This document shows positions 30,230 through 38,036 of a stretch of DNA of 49,688 nucleotides, piece after piece. Within the stretch, counting starts at the first letter, position 1. The number at the start of each line of letters is the position of its first letter. This stretch comes from Methylovulum sp. (GTDB lineage Bacteria > Pseudomonadota > Gammaproteobacteria > Methylococcales > Methylomonadaceae), in the NCBI GenBank assembly GCA_030653435.1, contig JAURZI010000077.1:1-49688 (forward strand), in the 5' to 3' direction. The notes under the pieces are model-generated. The model was not told where the DNA came from. It searched no databases and worked only from the letters and a program-made list of their open reading frames with translations. A program made the position numbers and the translations under genes.

Positions 30230-31057
30230 TTAAGGATTAGAATCTTTAAATCGGATATAAATATTCGATCCGCTATCAATATTTTTTTGTTGCACTTCTA
30301 TGTAATCCAGCGACCTGATCAGTTTGCCCAGTTTGTCAAAGCCATAATTTCTAGGATCAAACGAACTGTCCACGCGCGGGATATACGACCCTACACCACC
30401 TAGGTTTGCCCATCCGTCTTCTTCAGACGCGGACTCAATAGCTTCTTTAATCAGCTTTTTTAACGTAGCATCTTTGGACGGATTGACAATTTTGCTAGCT
30501 GGTACGTTTTTATCATGTTGGACAACAGCAGAAATCGCGCTATCGGCTTTTTTCGAAAGGGCGGCGTTTGTTTCCACCGGCTTTGTTGCTTTCTTAGTGT
30601 CATCGGCAGGATTGTCATCCATGATGGTTTCGGTAAAAACAAATTTATTACACGCCGCACGAAAAGCCTCAGGCGTTGACCGTTTACCAATGCCAATAAC
30701 CTCAAGCCCTGCTTCCCTGAGCCGGGTTGCCAATTTAGTAAAATCACTGTCACTGGAAACCAGAAAAAAACCGTCAAACTTGCCGCTATAAAGTAAATCC
30801 ATGGCATCAATGATTAATGCGGAATCCGTGGCATTTTTACCTGAGGTATAAGCAAACTGCTGCATAGGTTGAATAGCGTGTTTATTAAGCACCGTTTTCC
30901 AACTGCCCAGGCGGGTGTTGGTCCAATCGCCATAACAACGCCGTGACGTGACATCCCCGTATCTGGCTGCTTCAGTCAGTATCGCATCAATTGCTTTAGC
31001 CTGGGCGTTATCGGCGTCGATCAACAAAGCAAACCTTTTGTTTTCATTAACGTTCAT
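30230..31057 (-). CDS. NYN-domain putative RNase with C-terminal OST-HTH/LOTUS domain
   Basis: 275 residues. The PIN-like NYN domain (about 8-140) has the acidic residues expected for metal-dependent RNA cleavage: LLIDADN (11-17), SALIIDAMDLLY and SSDSDFTKLATRLRE. A lysine-rich linker (about 145-205) leads to a LOTUS-type winged helix (about 200-272, LKKLIKEAIES, DPRNYGFDKLGKLIRSLDYI). Related proteins bind and cut RNA; the target here is unknown. The ATG shares one base with the ccmF stop (TAATG), so it is translated from the ccm mRNA, between ccmF and ccmG where no such gene is needed for cytochrome c maturation. Confidence 0.88.
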   Translation of the reverse strand: MNVNENKRFALLIDADNAQAKAIDAILTEAARYGDVTSRRCYGDWTNTRLGSWKTVLNKHAIQPMQQFAYTSGKNATDSALIIDAMDLLYSGKFDGFFLVSSDSDFTKLATRLREAGLEVIGIGKRSTPEAFRAACNKFVFTETIMDDNPADDTKKATKPVETNAALSKKADSAISAVVQHDKNVPASKIVNPSKDATLKKLIKEAIESASEEDGWANLGGVGSYIPRVDSSFDPRNYGFDKLGKLIRSLDYIEVQQKNIDSGSNIYIRFKDSNP

Positions 31058-33003
31058 TATCCACCTGTCGGTAATTTGGCCATCCGATACCGCCGATCAC
31101 AAGCCGCGCATAATCCCCCCACCGCCATAAACACTGCGCCCAGCCAAATCCAGCGTATGAACGATTTATAATAAATCCTGAGGCTCCATGCGCCTTCATT
31201 ACCTAGCGGCTCGCCGATAGCGACGAATAAATCCCTGAATAACCCGGCATCAATCGCCGCTTCCGTCATCGGCATGGTTTGCACTTGATACACGCGCTTT
31301 TGCGGTTCCAGTTGTGCGACTTGTTTGCCGTTGTGGCTGACGGTGACAAACGCTTGTTGGGCGACGTAATTGACGCCTTGGGTCTCCTTAACGCCGTGGA
31401 ATTCAAAAATATAGCCTGACATATCCAGTGAGTCGTCCGGTGCCATACGCACGTCTTTTTCGACGCTGTAAACTGAGGTTAACGTAATGCCGGTGGCGAA
31501 AACGGCGATGCCGAGATGGGCGATGGTCATACCGTAAAAGCCGGAGGGGATAGTCGCCAAGCGTTGCCAGGATAAGCCTTTGGCACCCAATCGCTCAACA
31601 AACGCCAGCACGGCGATGGCGGTTGTCCATAAAGCCAGCGTCAAACCCAACACCGCACCCCAGGAGTAAAACGGCATCAGCAATGGGATGGCTAAGCCAC
31701 CCGCCACACAGCCACCGATAATCCAGCGCAAGCGGGCACCCAACGCAGCCAGGCTATCTTTTTTCCAACGCATTAACACGCCCAAGCCCACCACCACGGC
31801 TAGCGGCGCCATCAGCGGGATGAACACAGCGTTGAAATACGGCGGGCCCACGGATATTTTACCCAGGCCCAGTGCGTCGATGACCAGCGGGTATAGCGTA
31901 CCCAGCAAAATGCTGGACGCGGTCACGACCAGTAAGACATTGTTCAGCAAGATCGCCGATTCTTTGGAAACCAGTTCAAACGTCGCGCTGCTTTTGACGT
32001 AAGGCGCGCGAATGGCGTACAGCAATAACGAGCCGCCGACGACCACGCCCAAGAACACCAAAATAAACAGGCCGCGGGCGGGATCGCTGGCGAAAGCGTG
32101 GACGGAAGTCAATACACCGGACCGCACCAGAAAGGTACCGAGCAAGCTCAACGAAAATGCAAAAATCGCCAATAACACCGTCCAGGTTTTAAACACACCG
32201 CGTTTCTCGGTCGCCGCCAGCGAGTGCATTAAGGCCGTGCCGACCAGCCAGGGCATAAACGATGCGTTTTCCACCGGATCCCAAAACCACCAGCCGCCCC
32301 AACCGAGTTCATAATAAGCCCACCAGCTGCCCAACGCGATACCCAAGGTCAAAAACATCCACGCCATATTTGTCCATGGCCGTGACCATCGCGCCCAAGC
32401 CGCATCCAACCGCCCTTCCAATAAGGCCGCAATCGCAAAGGCAAACGCCACCGAAAAGCCGACATAGCCCATGTACAGCATCGGCGGATGGATTGCCAAA
32501 CCTGGATCTTGTAATAACGGGTTCAAATCCCGCCCTTCCAAGGGTGCGGGAAACAACCGCTCAAACGGGTTGGATGTCAACAACAAGAACAGCAAAAAGC
32601 CGATGGATACCAAACCCATCACACCCAGCACTCTCGCCACGGTCATTTCAGGAATGGTTTTGCTAAACTGCGCCACCAAGCCCGTCCAACATGCCAGCAC
32701 CAAAGCCCACAGCAATAACGAGCCTTCATGCGCGCCCCAAACGCCGGAAACCAAGTACAGCGTCGGTAAGGCGGTATTGGAATTATGGGCAATGTAAGCC
32801 ACGGAAAAATCATGGACGATGCAGCTATAGGTCAAGCAGCCGTAAGCGATGGCTATAAAAAATAATTGCGCGAACGCGGCGGGCTTCGCGACGGCTATCC
32901 AGCCGGAAACGCCACGGAATGCGCCGATGATGGGTAGGCTGCCAAGCACCAGCGCCATGCACAAAGCGAGGATGAGGGAAAAATGGCCGAGTTCTGGGAT
33001 CAT
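31057..33003 (-). CDS. ccmF: Haem lyase subunit CcmF
   Basis: 648 residues, many transmembrane helices, with the tryptophan-rich haem-handling motif WGGWWFWDPVENASFMPWL and WGAHEGSLLLW. A periplasmic domain follows (SVYSVEKDVRMAPDDS to FRDLFVAIGEPLGN) and a last helix. CcmF with CcmH/I transfers haem from CcmE to apocytochrome c. 70 nt downstream of yeeN in the transcription direction. Length and motifs are normal. Confidence 0.97.
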   Translation of the reverse strand: MIPELGHFSLILALCMALVLGSLPIIGAFRGVSGWIAVAKPAAFAQLFFIAIAYGCLTYSCIVHDFSVAYIAHNSNTALPTLYLVSGVWGAHEGSLLLWALVLACWTGLVAQFSKTIPEMTVARVLGVMGLVSIGFLLFLLLTSNPFERLFPAPLEGRDLNPLLQDPGLAIHPPMLYMGYVGFSVAFAFAIAALLEGRLDAAWARWSRPWTNMAWMFLTLGIALGSWWAYYELGWGGWWFWDPVENASFMPWLVGTALMHSLAATEKRGVFKTWTVLLAIFAFSLSLLGTFLVRSGVLTSVHAFASDPARGLFILVFLGVVVGGSLLLYAIRAPYVKSSATFELVSKESAILLNNVLLVVTASSILLGTLYPLVIDALGLGKISVGPPYFNAVFIPLMAPLAVVVGLGVLMRWKKDSLAALGARLRWIIGGCVAGGLAIPLLMPFYSWGAVLGLTLALWTTAIAVLAFVERLGAKGLSWQRLATIPSGFYGMTIAHLGIAVFATGITLTSVYSVEKDVRMAPDDSLDMSGYIFEFHGVKETQGVNYVAQQAFVTVSHNGKQVAQLEPQKRVYQVQTMPMTEAAIDAGLFRDLFVAIGEPLGNEGAWSLRIYYKSFIRWIWLGAVFMAVGGLCAACDRRYRMAKLPTGG

Positions 33004-33073: not shown

Positions 33074-33790
33074 TCAATACTCGGCATCATGATAAATATT
33101 CTGCACATCATCCAGCTCATTCAACATATCCAAAAACTTTTCAAACAGGACCAGATCGTCGCCGCTAATGGCTGTGGAGCTTTTGGGTAAAAATTGAATT
33201 TCATCGACATCAAAATCCACCGCACCTATGCCATCCGCCAAGGCTTGCTTAGCCTTAAAGTAATCGGCAGGGGGGGTAAAAACCGTGACTTTGCCCTCTT
33301 CGCTTTCAATATCGGAGACATCCACGTCAGCCGCCAGCAAGGCTTCCAAAACCGTGTCCTCGTCATCATGCTTAAAGGCCAAGATTGCGGCATGGTCAAA
33401 CATGTGGCTGACCGCGCCCTGGATGCCGATTTTAGCTTTGGTTTTGGTGAAACACTGGCGCACATCGTTAAAGGTACGGTTAGGGTTGTCGGTCAGGCAA
33501 TCGACAATCACCAGGCAACCGCCGGGGCCAAAGCCTTCATAGCGGGCAGGCGTGAATTCTTCACCGCCGCCGCCTTTGGCTTTGTCCAAGGCTTTTTCGA
33601 TAACGTGGGCTGGCACCTGGGCTTTTTTAGCACGGTCAATCAGCCCCCGTAATGCCAGATTCCCATCAGGGTCTATACCCCCCGCTTTAGCGCACACATA
33701 AAGTTCGCGGCCATATTTACTGTAGACTTTTGCCTTGGCATCAGACGTTTTGGCCATAGACACTTTGCGGTTTTGGTAGGCTCTACCCAT
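33074..33790 (-). CDS. YebC/PmpR family protein, YeeN-like subgroup
   Basis: 238 residues starting [20 protein letters not shown], the YeeN-type N-terminus. It continues with [60 protein letters not shown] and [11 protein letters not shown]. The family is annotated as transcriptional regulators, while recent work on YebC proteins points to a role at stalled ribosomes; which applies here is unknown. GGAG lies about 10 nt before the ATG. It sits between ccmE and ccmF. Confidence 0.9.
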
Positions 33791-34318: not shown

Positions 34319-34771
34319 TTAAATTAGGGGGGGGGGGTATTTACCTTCAACCTGCTGCTTCAAACTCGCCTTAACTTCCGGCGGCATATAATTCTCATCA
34401 TGCTTCGCCAACACTTCCTCTGCAACAAACACGCCGCGGCTATCCAGCTTGCCGTTGGCGACGATGCCTTGGCCCTCGCGAAATAAATCCGGCAAGATGC
34501 CGGTATATTCCACCGCCACTTCCTTACTGAAATCGGTCAGTGTAAAGTGCACGGTCAAGCCGTTTCCTGGGCGTTGCACCGAGCCTTTAACAACCATGCC
34601 GCCCAGACGGAACAGCGCGTCATTCGGTGCTTTGCCTGCCATCACATCGGTGGTCGAAAAAAAATACATCAGATTTTCGTTAAAAGATTTAAGCGCGAAA
34701 CCGACGGCTGTACCTATGCCGATGACCATCAACGCTATCAATATTAATCGCTGTCTTCTTGCTGGCTTCAT
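34319..34771 (-). CDS. ccmE: Periplasmic haem chaperone CcmE
   Basis: 150 residues. N-terminal anchor helix (LILIALMVIGIGTAVGFALK), then the OB-fold domain with FRLGGMVVKGSVQRPG. The haem-binding motif is VLAKHDENYMPPE, whose His takes haem covalently in the family. The last codons (YPPPLI) are encoded over a run of 11 C on the minus strand (34327-34337), so the tail is prone to frameshift beyond the functional core. The ATG overlaps the ccmD stop by 4 nt. Confidence 0.96.
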   Translation of the reverse strand: MKPARRQRLILIALMVIGIGTAVGFALKSFNENLMYFFSTTDVMAGKAPNDALFRLGGMVVKGSVQRPGNGLTVHFTLTDFSKEVAVEYTGILPDLFREGQGIVANGKLDSRGVFVAEEVLAKHDENYMPPEVKASLKQQVEGKYPPPLI

Positions 34772-34932
34772 GGGTTTTGCCGTTTTTGTTTGTGTGCGAG
34801 TTGCCGTAAAAATTGTTTGCGTTGGATAATCGGCAACACGATGTTAGCGAGTAACACCACAAAGCAAATACCATAACTTGCCCAGACATAAAAGGCGTAA
34901 CCGCCCATTGCGAAGAATTCTTGCAGGCTCAT
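34768..34932 (-). CDS. ccmD: Haem exporter accessory protein CcmD
   Basis: A 54-residue frame reads MSLQEFFAMGGYAFYVWASY then a hydrophobic helix (GICFVVLLANIVLPII) and a basic tail (QRKQFLRQLAHKQKRQNP). This is the CcmD pattern: one helix, cytoplasmic basic C-terminus. It stabilises the CcmABC-CcmE haem transfer complex. It is bounded by ATGA overlaps at both ends (ccmC stop 34929-34931, ccmE start 34771). Confidence 0.93.
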   Translation of the reverse strand: MSLQEFFAMGGYAFYVWASYGICFVVLLANIVLPIIQRKQFLRQLAHKQKRQNP

Positions 34933-35693
34933 GGTTGTTGCTCCGTGACCATTTTTTTAACCCAGGCCGCAGTACGTTCGCGTTGCAGCAATTCCAGCCG
35001 TGCCCGTTGCAGCATGGCGATGACATAATAAAATTTGAACGCCACCGCCATCGTGAGCAAAGGCACCAGCATGCTGACATGGATGGACGGCTTGTCCATT
35101 TTGGTGACAGTCGGGCCCTGGTGCAAGGTGTTCCACCATTCCACCGAGTAATGGATAATCGGGATATTGACCACGCCGACCAAAGCTAAAATCGCCACGG
35201 CTTTGGACGCCGTGCGCTTGTCGTCTATCGCATTGTACAGGCCTATGACGCCCAAATATAAGAACAACAAGATCAATTCCGACGTCAGCCGCGCATCCCA
35301 TACCCACCATGCCCCCCACATGGGCTTGCCCCATAAGGAACCGGTCACCAAAGCGATAAAGGTAAAACTCGCGCCGACTGAGGCACTGCTGATCGCGACG
35401 ATTTCGGCGAGTTTGATGCGCCAAATCAGGCCAACCGCACCAGCCATCGCCATAACGATATAGATGAACAAAGACATCCACGCACTTGGGACATGGATGT
35501 AAATGATACGGTAGCTGTCGCCTTGCTGGTAATCGGGCGGGGCAAGGTACAAGCCGCCATACAAGCCGCCGACCAGCAATATTAAAAAAATACCCACCAG
35601 CCAAGGCATTAGTTTGTCGGTCAGTGCGTAAAAATGCGGTGGCGACGCCATGCGGTGAAAGAACCGGCCTACCGGATCGGGAAATAGGAACAT
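34929..35693 (-). CDS. ccmC: Haem exporter membrane protein CcmC
   Basis: 254 residues with about six helices. The haem-handling tryptophan motif is WGAWWVWDARLTSELIL, preceded by the periplasmic loop SYRIIYIHVPSAWMSLF. It loads haem onto CcmE. The start ATG at 35693 has no strong ribosome-binding site. It is separated from the upstream ferritin-like gene by 121 nt with overlapping hairpins, while it is coupled to ccmD by a 4-nt overlap. Confidence 0.96.
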   Translation of the reverse strand: MFLFPDPVGRFFHRMASPPHFYALTDKLMPWLVGIFLILLVGGLYGGLYLAPPDYQQGDSYRIIYIHVPSAWMSLFIYIVMAMAGAVGLIWRIKLAEIVAISSASVGASFTFIALVTGSLWGKPMWGAWWVWDARLTSELILLFLYLGVIGLYNAIDDKRTASKAVAILALVGVVNIPIIHYSVEWWNTLHQGPTVTKMDKPSIHVSMLVPLLTMAVAFKFYYVIAMLQRARLELLQRERTAAWVKKMVTEQQP

Positions 35694-35753: not shown

Positions 35754-35816
35754 GAGAAAGGTTCAAAGCAACGGGCCGTTTACTTTGAACCTCATTGTGA
35801 GGTTGCCGCCTTTCTC
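35754..35816 (-). promoter_or_regulatory. Overlapping, mutually exclusive hairpins between the ferritin-like gene and ccmC
   Basis: Stem A pairs AGGTTCAAAG (35759-35768) with CTTTGAACCT (35783-35792). Stem B pairs AACCTCA (35788-35794) with TGAGGTT (35798-35804) and shares bases with the second arm of A. A third pairing GAGAAAG/CTTTCTC (35754-35760 with 35810-35816) can close around both. There is no clear T-run. It could be an attenuator, a processing site or a weak terminator. Confidence 0.4.
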
Positions 35817-36708
35817 AAGCTTTGCAATAAGAAGGTATCCAACTCTGTTCAACCATGTAAGCAGGCACCTCATTAAAATCAAACGCTACACCATCTTTAA
35901 CCATTTGTTCCACATCAAACAGCACACCGACTTCAGGAATATCGGCGAAGAACATTTTATACAAAGGCCCTACCATCATTTTTGCGGCTTTCATGCCCAT
36001 CCCGCCGATAAAATTGCGACGCTGGCCGACATGGGCTATTTCGTCTATGGTGATTTCATCCAAAAGTTCCTTTAATCGCTGCTTAACCTCCGGCTCATCC
36101 GCCAGTAACTCATCAAACAAGCGATGCAAATGGAAATAGTAGGTCACACCCATTAATTCCGTGACAAAAGCAGGCGCATCCAATAAGAAACCCGGTAATT
36201 TTGGGAATTGCTCATAAATCCATTCTTTAACAGGGCTCAAAGGCACCCATTCCACTTTGTCCAAACCACAAGTCAGCAACATTTCTTCGAATAAGCGCCA
36301 GTGGCAGAATTCTTCCGCCAGATGCACCCGGCTAATTTTATCTTCCAGGCATCGGGAATCCGCCATTGTCGGCGTCACATCCCATGCGCCTTTGATGCCT
36401 ACCCATTCATGTCTGGCGAATTTGTACATACTGGTCAGCATCAGGGTCATCCGGTCTAAGGACTGAGGATTATCTTCCAGCTCAATATAATTGCGGTAAA
36501 AAGCTTCAGGATCAGCCAGCGGTGTCCGCAATTTGACGGGATGGTCTTTAAAATGCTGCAATCTAGCGCGTTTTTTAGCTAAATCTTTATCTGCTTCGAG
36601 CAGCTCACCACCGTGCCGCTGGGTAAATTCCCAGTAATCGGCAAAGTTTTCTTGCCGTTGTTGCTTGCTTGCTGGTGAAAAAATGGACAGATAGTTGGCA
36701 GTCCCCAT
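35815..36708 (-). CDS. Ferritin-like putative diiron protein inside the ccm operon
   Basis: 297 residues, all-helical, no signal peptide, so probably cytoplasmic. A four-helix diiron ligand set can be read: Glu101 (FARHEWVG), Glu133-x-x-His136 (AEEFCHWRLFEE), Glu184 (FVTELMGV) and Glu223-x-x-His226 (IDEIAHVGQR). This fits the E, ExxH, E, ExxH pattern of ferritin-like oxidases and reductases. I do not recognise the specific family and no substrate can be named. It lies 36 nt after ccmB and 121 nt before ccmC. A link to haem or iron handling is only inferred from position. It could alternatively be an unrelated oxygenase carried along. Confidence 0.8.
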   Translation of the reverse strand: MGTANYLSIFSPASKQQRQENFADYWEFTQRHGGELLEADKDLAKKRARLQHFKDHPVKLRTPLADPEAFYRNYIELEDNPQSLDRMTLMLTSMYKFARHEWVGIKGAWDVTPTMADSRCLEDKISRVHLAEEFCHWRLFEEMLLTCGLDKVEWVPLSPVKEWIYEQFPKLPGFLLDAPAFVTELMGVTYYFHLHRLFDELLADEPEVKQRLKELLDEITIDEIAHVGQRRNFIGGMGMKAAKMMVGPLYKMFFADIPEVGVLFDVEQMVKDGVAFDFNEVPAYMVEQSWIPSYCKA

Positions 36709-36744: not shown

Positions 36745-37422
36745 TTATTGGCTCATGCTCATTTTTAATGCTGCGGCAGTTGGCCAAGGCGCCAATGCCA
36801 GAGCCATAAACAGCATTGCCGTCAGGATATTGATTTGCGCCCCTACCGGCAAACCGTTGCCGGCCATGGCGACGGCATTACCGGCAAAAATCAGCACGGG
36901 TACATAAAGCGGCAACACCAGCAGCGATAAAATCATACCGCCCCGACGCAAACCGACGGTTAGTGCAACGCCTATTGCACCAATCAAACTTAACACCGGC
37001 GTGCCGAGCAACAGCGTCAGTAATAAGATGCCCAGGGAATGCACGGACATCCCCAAAAAAATCGCCAGCAAGGGCGCAATCACCAATAATGGCAGGCCTG
37101 TCACCAGCCAATGCGCGATAATTTTGCCTAGTATCAGGACGGATACCGGATGCTGGCTTAATAACATCTGCTCCAAAGAACCATCATCAAAATCCGAACG
37201 GAACAGGCTGTCCAACGACAGCATCGCCGCCAATAATGCCGCAACCCAGATAATCCCTGGCGCAATCGTTTGCAATAACTGCGGCCTTGCACCTATCCCT
37301 AGCGGAAACAAGGTGATGACCAACACAAAAAACAGCAAGGGGTTGGCGATTTCCGAGCGGCGGCGCAACGCTAAAATCAGGTCGCGGCGAATAACGGCAA
37401 AAAATGCGTGGGTTAATGGCAT
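36745..37422 (-). CDS. ccmB: Haem exporter permease CcmB
   Basis: 225 residues with about six helices and the family motifs RRDLILALRRRSEIANPLLF, DDGSLEQMLLSQHPV and LLGTPVLSLIGAIGVALTVG. With CcmA it forms the ABC transporter that powers release of holo-CcmE. Its ATG shares one base with the ccmA stop. Normal length. Confidence 0.96.
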   Translation of the reverse strand: MPLTHAFFAVIRRDLILALRRRSEIANPLLFFVLVITLFPLGIGARPQLLQTIAPGIIWVAALLAAMLSLDSLFRSDFDDGSLEQMLLSQHPVSVLILGKIIAHWLVTGLPLLVIAPLLAIFLGMSVHSLGILLLTLLLGTPVLSLIGAIGVALTVGLRRGGMILSLLVLPLYVPVLIFAGNAVAMAGNGLPVGAQINILTAMLFMALALAPWPTAAALKMSMSQ

Positions 37423-38036
37423 CAGGATAAATGGATACGCTGGACAGCAACGCCCTGGAGGTTAAGGTCATGGTGCGACGTCAACACAATCAGGCCGCCG
37501 CCTGCACAGTGTTCAGCCATCAACGTTTCGGTCAGTTTTATGCCTTGCTTGTCCAGCGAGGTGAACGGTTCGTCAAGTATCCATAATCGGTTTTGCGTAA
37601 CCAGCAACCGCGCCAGCGACAAACGCCGCTTTTGCCCGGCCGACAAGGCTTGAACCGGCATATCATCGTAACCTGACAATTGCACTCGCGCCAACGCGTC
37701 GGCAATAGCATGTAGGCCAGACTGCCCTAAGGCCACTGCAAAACTCAGGTTTTCCAAGACTGTCAATTCTTTTTTGATGCCGTCCAGATGACCGACATAA
37801 GCCATATCGGCACGGTATTGGCTGTCATTAATGCCGGTTCCGCACCACAAAATGGTGCCTGCATCCGCTTCCCTAAAACCGCATAAGATACGCAACAGCG
37901 ACGTTTTGCCGCTACCGTTTTGGCCCTCCAGCAATAAAGCCTGGCCGGCTTGCAACGCAAAAACCAAGTCGGCAAACAACACCCTATCATCGCGGATACA
38001 GCTTAAGCCTATACCTTGCAATACCGGACTGGTCAT
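37422..38036 (-). CDS. ccmA: Haem exporter ATP-binding protein CcmA
   Basis: 204 residues. Walker A EGQNGSGKTSLLR, signature ALSAGQKRRLSLARLL, Walker B LWILDEPFTSLD and the switch His in TSHHDL. It hydrolyses ATP for the CcmAB complex. The ATG overlaps the rlmB stop as ATGA, so rlmB and ccm are cotranscribed here. Confidence 0.97.
   Translation of the reverse strand: MTSPVLQGIGLSCIRDDRVLFADLVFALQAGQALLLEGQNGSGKTSLLRILCGFREADAGTILWCGTGINDSQYRADMAYVGHLDGIKKELTVLENLSFAVALGQSGLHAIADALARVQLSGYDDMPVQALSAGQKRRLSLARLLVTQNRLWILDEPFTSLDKQGIKLTETLMAEHCAGGGLIVLTSHHDLNLQGVAVQRIHLS

Follow-up and report, generated by a model that had tools for sequence, protein, structure and literature searches.

A conserved gene in a cytochrome c maturation operon

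The window, that is, the whole stretch of 49,688 nucleotides of Methylovulum sp. DNA analysed here (contig JAURZI010000077.1), carries a cytochrome c maturation operon in which the genes follow one another on the same strand in the order ccmA, ccmB, a gene for a predicted diiron protein, ccmC, ccmD and ccmE. The features assigned at this locus are listed below.

37422..38036, reverse strand: ccmA of the host operon (TIGR01189, 2.9e-68)
36745..37422, reverse strand: ccmB of the host operon (PF03379, 3.4e-79; TIGR01190, 4.4e-80)
35815..36708, reverse strand: diiron-protein gene, an ATG-started open reading frame of 297 amino acids, stop included
34929..35693, reverse strand: ccmC of the host operon (TIGR01191, 2.9e-80)
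34768..34932, reverse strand: ccmD of the host operon (PF04995, 2.8e-20)
34319-34771: CcmE, named by eye and not through a library match
33074-33790, reverse strand: YebC/TACO1-family gene (PF01709, 8.5e-46)
31057-33003: CcmF, named by eye and not through a library match

According to these coordinates, 36 bases separate ccmB from the start of the diiron gene and 121 bases separate its end from ccmC; the flanks proposed for it in the original prediction are confirmed by PF03379 and TIGR01191. The reading frame is a real gene, far from a chance occurrence, given that, of 301 Methylococcales genomes, 129 have homologues at E <= 1e-5, with intact copies in 122 and nothing but fragments (shorter than 200 residues) in seven. 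The encoded protein, which had been described as unrecognised, indeed matches nothing in Pfam or NCBIfam at E <= 1, Ccm families included, and contains no stretch of membrane-grade hydrophobicity (maximum Kyte-Doolittle value over 19 residues, 1.17).

Outside the order, the gene is rare. Among 369 genomes drawn across the class, matches were confined to the window's own genome and to G328, a member of another order and the only holder found outside Methylococcales. A profile search over 398 genomes of the phylum yielded no convincing additional member; the 12 matches besides the window were short, with E-values of 0.03-0.97, and were taken as chance. A pattern scan of GTDB contigs returned 21 loci, and those with a genus in their title belong to Methylovulum, Methylomonas, Methylobacter and Crenothrix. 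Plasmids gave no match to the gene, and none of 13 pattern matches in viral contigs is a relative. Among the papers listed in our literature search, no title concerns this gene, and none combines Methylococcales, diiron and ferritin-like. We describe an unannotated family of predicted diiron proteins, absent from the family libraries searched, strongly conserved, and found here almost only in Methylococcales. For genome G244, the search output shows a pair of incomplete copies (L189 and L190), both of which contain a single in-frame TAG.

A conserved set of candidate ligands on a predicted four-helix bundle

Conservation was assessed over 123 distinct sequences, all 280 residues or longer, the most distant aligned member being 49% identical to the window protein. 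The positions that bear on metal binding, together with the C-terminal tail, are placed as follows.

36406..36408, reverse strand: Glu101 codon, helix 1 (residues 86-111), predicted metal ligand, 123/123
36322..36324, reverse strand: His129 codon, helix 2, candidate third His ligand (HxxxExxH), 123/123
36301..36312, reverse strand: Glu133-x-x-His136 codons, helix 2 (residues 121-146), 123/123
36157..36159, reverse strand: Glu184 codon, helix 3 (residues 177-201), 123/123
36031..36042, reverse strand: Glu223-x-x-His226 codons, helix 4 (residues 206-255), 122/123
35824..35841, reverse strand: conserved C-terminal tail W290-x-P-x-Y-C295, invariant in 123/123

The seven candidate ligands occur together in 122 of the 123 sequences; the sole exception (L069, 4998-5948) has Lys at position 223 and Arg at 226. 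This divergent sequence is a second copy in genome G109, which also carries a normal one (L070). Beyond the candidate ligands, the residues kept in every sequence include K96, R99, W109, R127, E132, R138, Y191, D222 and the QRRN run at 229-232, as well as W290, P292, Y294 and C295 of the tail, and the N-terminal region of about 85 residues is also conserved. The ligand set named in the original prediction (E101, E133/H136, E184, E223/H226) is thus retained in 122 of 123 relatives, while H129 had been overlooked. Since its spacing with E133 and H136 (i, i+4, i+7) is that of the HxxxExxH helix in DnfA (PMC9478400), H129 is probably a third His ligand, which would give a set of three His and four Glu; alternatively, it may be a second-shell residue.

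An AlphaFold (AF2) model built from 22 sequences reached a mean pLDDT of 75 and a pTM of 0.79, the other four models having pLDDT values of 55-69. In the best model the candidate ligands lie on long helices (86-111, 121-146, 177-201 and 206-255), whereas the N-terminus is poorly modelled, with residues 1-39 mostly below a pLDDT of 50. Conserved residues and predicted helices together place the pattern E, ExxH, E, ExxH on the four core helices. This is also the ligand order of ribonucleotide reductase R2, and two ExxH helices with four Glu constitute the general ferritin-like set.

Foldseek comparison with the PDB returned 322 matches at E <= 10, none of them at E <= 0.001. Among the 50 listed, all weak, 47 are ferritin-like as judged by their titles, headed by 3ez0, a ferritin-like protein of unknown function (E 0.12, the best value obtained), and including NrdF/R2, desaturases, PaaA/PaaC, aldehyde deformylating oxygenase and Dps; the others are a pair of AetD chains and one de novo protein. 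Class I ribonucleotide reductase R2/NrdF and R2-like oxidases thus stand among the best-listed matches, at E 0.16 or worse and TM values of 0.27-0.44. These 50 include no structure named as AurF or CmlI, a viral structure library gave no match at E <= 0.001, and a PDB sequence search with the window protein and profile A1 recovered nothing relevant and no R2. Single matches are all non-significant; because the fold class to which they point agrees with the residue pattern, we consider a ferritin-like diiron fold very probable. The four-helix diiron bundle originally proposed for this protein is thereby supported by conservation and by the AlphaFold helices, with the weak Foldseek matches as an accompaniment.

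A fold of this class is compatible with several activities. Rubrerythrin- or ferritin-like roles rely on similar residues, and a protein of that type, oxidising or storing iron or protecting against peroxide or O2, would be in keeping with the general ligand set, with the Dps-like chains among the Foldseek matches listed and with the patchy presence of the gene, which suits a stress function. Nevertheless, the invariant H129, the conserved N-terminal region and the WxPxYC tail, the latter two unlike small ferritins, argue against it, and most of the listed Foldseek matches are of R2 or oxygenase type. We therefore regard an iron-storage or protective role as unlikely, and an oxidase or oxygenase as reasonably probable in preference to an iron store.

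Relation to N-oxygenases and to DUF455

The count of three His and four carboxylates brings to mind AurF and CmlI, which are described as 3H/4C ferritin-like N-oxygenases (PMC13108848), and DnfA, for which the reported ligands are Glu88, Glu123/His126, Glu182 and His209/Glu213/His216 (PMC9478400). The family described here shares with these enzymes the four Glu and three His, a single HxxxExxH helix and a predicted four-helix bundle. Unlike in DnfA, however, HxxxExxH lies on helix 2 and plain ExxH on helix 4, where residue 219 is Ile in all 123 sequences. As read from the sequences, the residue pattern therefore resembles that of the N-oxygenases with the third His on the opposite half of the bundle, which may reflect a half-swap or mere chance.

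Profile comparisons are in line with a partial resemblance. Of 26 members, 22 gave weak matches to the Pfam AurF model (PF11583) at E <= 5, the best at 4.4e-5; the window protein itself was not among them. The ten members detailed scored 11.9-23.2 bits against a gathering cut-off of 29.6. The match begins at the HxxxExxH of family helix 2, aligned to profile positions 179-184, and mostly stops by position 215, extending to 247 and 270 in two loci (L072 and L066). With scores below the cut-off and a match out of register, membership of the AurF family was rejected. The cut-off was exceeded at a single place, a different gene of genome G062, whose product aligned with the diiron family over 22 columns containing the same HxxxExxH, at a non-significant E of 0.23; read by eye, this motif forms the last ligand helix of the G062 protein. 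Plasmids were searched for more AurF sequences and provided none.

A second kinship worth weighing is that with DUF455 (PF04305), of which the family could be a distant member or an old paralogue, a view compatible with the enzymatic reading developed below. The two share the order of ligands and nearly share their spacing: 32/51/39 in the diiron family and 32/50/33 in DUF455 alignment A3 (from E72, E104/H107, E154 and E187/H190). In addition, an hhalign comparison brings helices 1-2 into register across 64 columns (E 0.011), and PF04305 was matched at E <= 5 by three of 26 members (best 0.0028), the match in L067 spanning residues 78-234. These signals are faint, however: the best member scores 17.7 bits under a Pfam cut-off of 34.3, the hhalign probability is 3.9, and the DUF455 alignment lacks a conserved His where H129 would fall. 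Moreover, 56 of 61 genomes of the order, the window's own included, already carry DUF455 as a gene of its own, as compared with 129 of 301 for the diiron family. On balance, we find such a kinship with DUF455 doubtful. Among 15 papers that contain the term DUF455, none has a title that concerns its function.

The ccm operon as one of many genomic settings

The original prediction had drawn from the position of the gene a possible role, alongside CcmABC, in acting on haem, protoporphyrin or iron supply, and had set as its refutation that homologues be found mostly outside ccm operons. A copy was scored as lying at the ccm site when ccmB upstream or ccmC downstream was seen on the same strand in the fetched stretches. 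Placement was counted for the 125 copies that reach 200 residues, which come from 123 genomes, leaving out eight fragments below that length and the secondary fragments in G041, G191, G203 and G294. Homologues do lie mostly elsewhere: the ccm site accounts for 49 copies, and the other 76 occur in varied settings, with none of the copies of G114, G258 and G289 at the ccm site. A contig end comes within 1000 bp of 11 of those 76, so that some ccm sites were perhaps undercalled; even if all 11 were misjudged, 65 of 125 copies would remain outside.

Within the 49 copies at the ccm site, 35 are tightly flanked, ccmB lying no more than 200 bp and ccmC no more than 300 bp away, and in six only ccmB or only ccmC is visible in the fetched stretch. 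By genus, intact copies are found at the ccm site only in ten genera, elsewhere only in 17, and in both settings in genus g17, so that the ccm position is common to all intact sampled copies of ten genera and to most of those of an eleventh, and is well kept there. In a quickly built tree, for which 126 rows were thinned by identity to 103 sequences, the setting label needs at least nine changes, only one of which is forced by the starred branches. The 11 rows beyond the midpoint root are all non-ccm and comprise families f3, f4, f6 and f36 and two of genus g12; that root was drawn and not inferred, and the tree gives no direction of moves. In three genomes of genus g29 (L085, L193 and L194), what is left of the gene at the ccm site is fragmentary, a sign of gene loss there.

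No constant company was seen around the copies elsewhere. No same-strand open reading frame of at least 80 amino acids lies within 150 bp on either side in 32 of the 76, contig ends being counted as no neighbour. Neighbours vary from genus to genus and those upstream have no common theme; by eye, we take them to be genes for APRT, GyrA, amidophosphoribosyltransferase, MobA, UreG and NAD kinase, among others. Neither a reductase nor a substrate gene was seen to recur near non-ccm copies, few of whose neighbours were checked against the libraries. As separate observations, an ABC-2 type permease gene (PF01061; L076, 5909-6712, reverse strand) directly precedes the diiron gene in one locus, a parallel to the CcmAB pair, and recurs ahead of it in L077 and not in L073 of the same genus, and an ABC ATPase gene lies two open reading frames upstream in four Methylomonas loci (L047-L050).

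The junction between ccmB and ccmC was also inspected in a sample of 30 ccmB loci, returned from the 47 ccmB-bearing genomes in a draw of 61. In 19 of 20 non-holder genomes examined, ccmB and ccmC lie within 218 bp of each other, and in five holders with the diiron gene elsewhere the gap measures 14-192 bp, with 14 bp in both G056 and G101. In the twentieth non-holder (G070), the space is occupied by a gene for a 358-residue protein labelled by eye as a predicted membrane transporter:

L219, 2221-3294, reverse strand: G070 junction transporter

Further genes accompany the diiron gene at the ccm site, namely a DUF6338 gene (L036), a DUF1796 gene (L038) and, between ccmB and the diiron gene, a reverse-strand open reading frame with no Pfam family (L032, 3092-3841). 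The latter has equivalents in L033, L035 and L037, with a signal-like start as seen by eye. In the window operon itself, the YebC/TACO1 gene between ccmE and ccmF is another guest. The junction thus takes in unrelated genes, which makes operon position there weak evidence of function.

These data allow us to weigh the possibility that the protein is an accessory of Ccm, i.e. a cytoplasmic diiron protein supplying, modifying or guarding haem or iron for CcmABCD export. It draws on the intact copies beside ccmB and/or ccmC in 11 genera, on the tight flanking of most of them and on the fragments that persist at the ccm site in genus g29. Against it, the copies placed elsewhere retain the ligands, G056 and G101 keep a closed ccmB-ccmC junction while holding the gene at another place, the junction is short in almost all non-holders examined and it also hosts unrelated genes. 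The resemblance to System I Ccm is one of gene neighbourhood only: none of the 20 non-holders examined, and none of the five examined holders with a copy elsewhere, has the diiron gene between ccmB and ccmC, and the constant association with ccm genes expected of a System I accessory was not found (49 of 125). We consider a Ccm accessory quite improbable and a function independent of Ccm likely. The predicted diiron four-helix protein is supported, whereas its proposed functional tie to haem export is not. Copies at the ccm site may be co-expressed with the ccm genes, and in the ten genera whose intact sampled copies are found there only, some functional tie could exist.

A proposed O2-activating enzyme and its possible chemistry

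Given that relatives lie mostly elsewhere in the genome, the place in the ccm operon says little about the job of the protein. The reading that we favour, and hold to be somewhat probable, is that of a stand-alone cytosolic O2-activating diiron enzyme that is a guest in the ccm operon. In such a soluble protein, the four core helices would bind two irons through E101, E133/H136, E184 and E223/H226; the reduced diiron centre would bind O2, and the resulting diiron intermediate, peroxo or oxo, would carry out the oxidation of a small substrate. Electrons might be supplied by a general cellular reductase, which is proposed because no partner gene was seen travelling with the diiron gene; in this regard the family departs from the account of AurF, CmlI and DnfA, no recurring partner reductase gene being found beside it. 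Within the ccm operon, transcription would perhaps be shared, with the product remaining outside the haem-export machine.

As for the chemistry, N-oxidation would be a first guess, since the 3-His/4-carboxylate count is that of AurF, CmlI and DnfA, albeit an unlikely one on present grounds. If true, it would bear on how methanotrophs handle ammonia and hydroxylamine. The particulate methane monooxygenase (pMMO) can turn ammonia into a toxic by-product (PMC5623727). A more specific version would be a half-swapped AurF-type 3H/4C enzyme that oxidises hydroxylamine (as DnfA) or another amine, and so would serve detoxification in gammaproteobacterial methanotrophs devoid of a haem hydroxylamine oxidoreductase. 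It is favoured by the finding of the gene only in Methylococcales and one other PF02461-bearing genome, with no PF13447 overlap in 18 genomes tested, and we nonetheless judge it highly improbable.

PF13447, which we take to be of the haem hydroxylamine oxidoreductase type, was present in none of nine holders and two of nine non-holders among 18 chosen genomes, a non-significant difference, seven of the nine non-holders being also devoid of it. The idea that the diiron gene is a complement of hydroxylamine oxidoreductase was accordingly set aside, and a role as hopanoid hydroxylase was likewise considered and dropped.

Within Methylococcales, PF02461 (AMO/pMMO; methane/ammonia monooxygenase) was found in 206 of 251 genomes, and in six of the nine holders tested directly, so that it discriminates little there. 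In the class-wide draw, PF02461 occurs in 11 of 369 genomes, seven of them outside Methylococcales; the diiron gene does not simply follow it, because six of these seven are without the gene, the sole holder among them being G328, which thus carries both.
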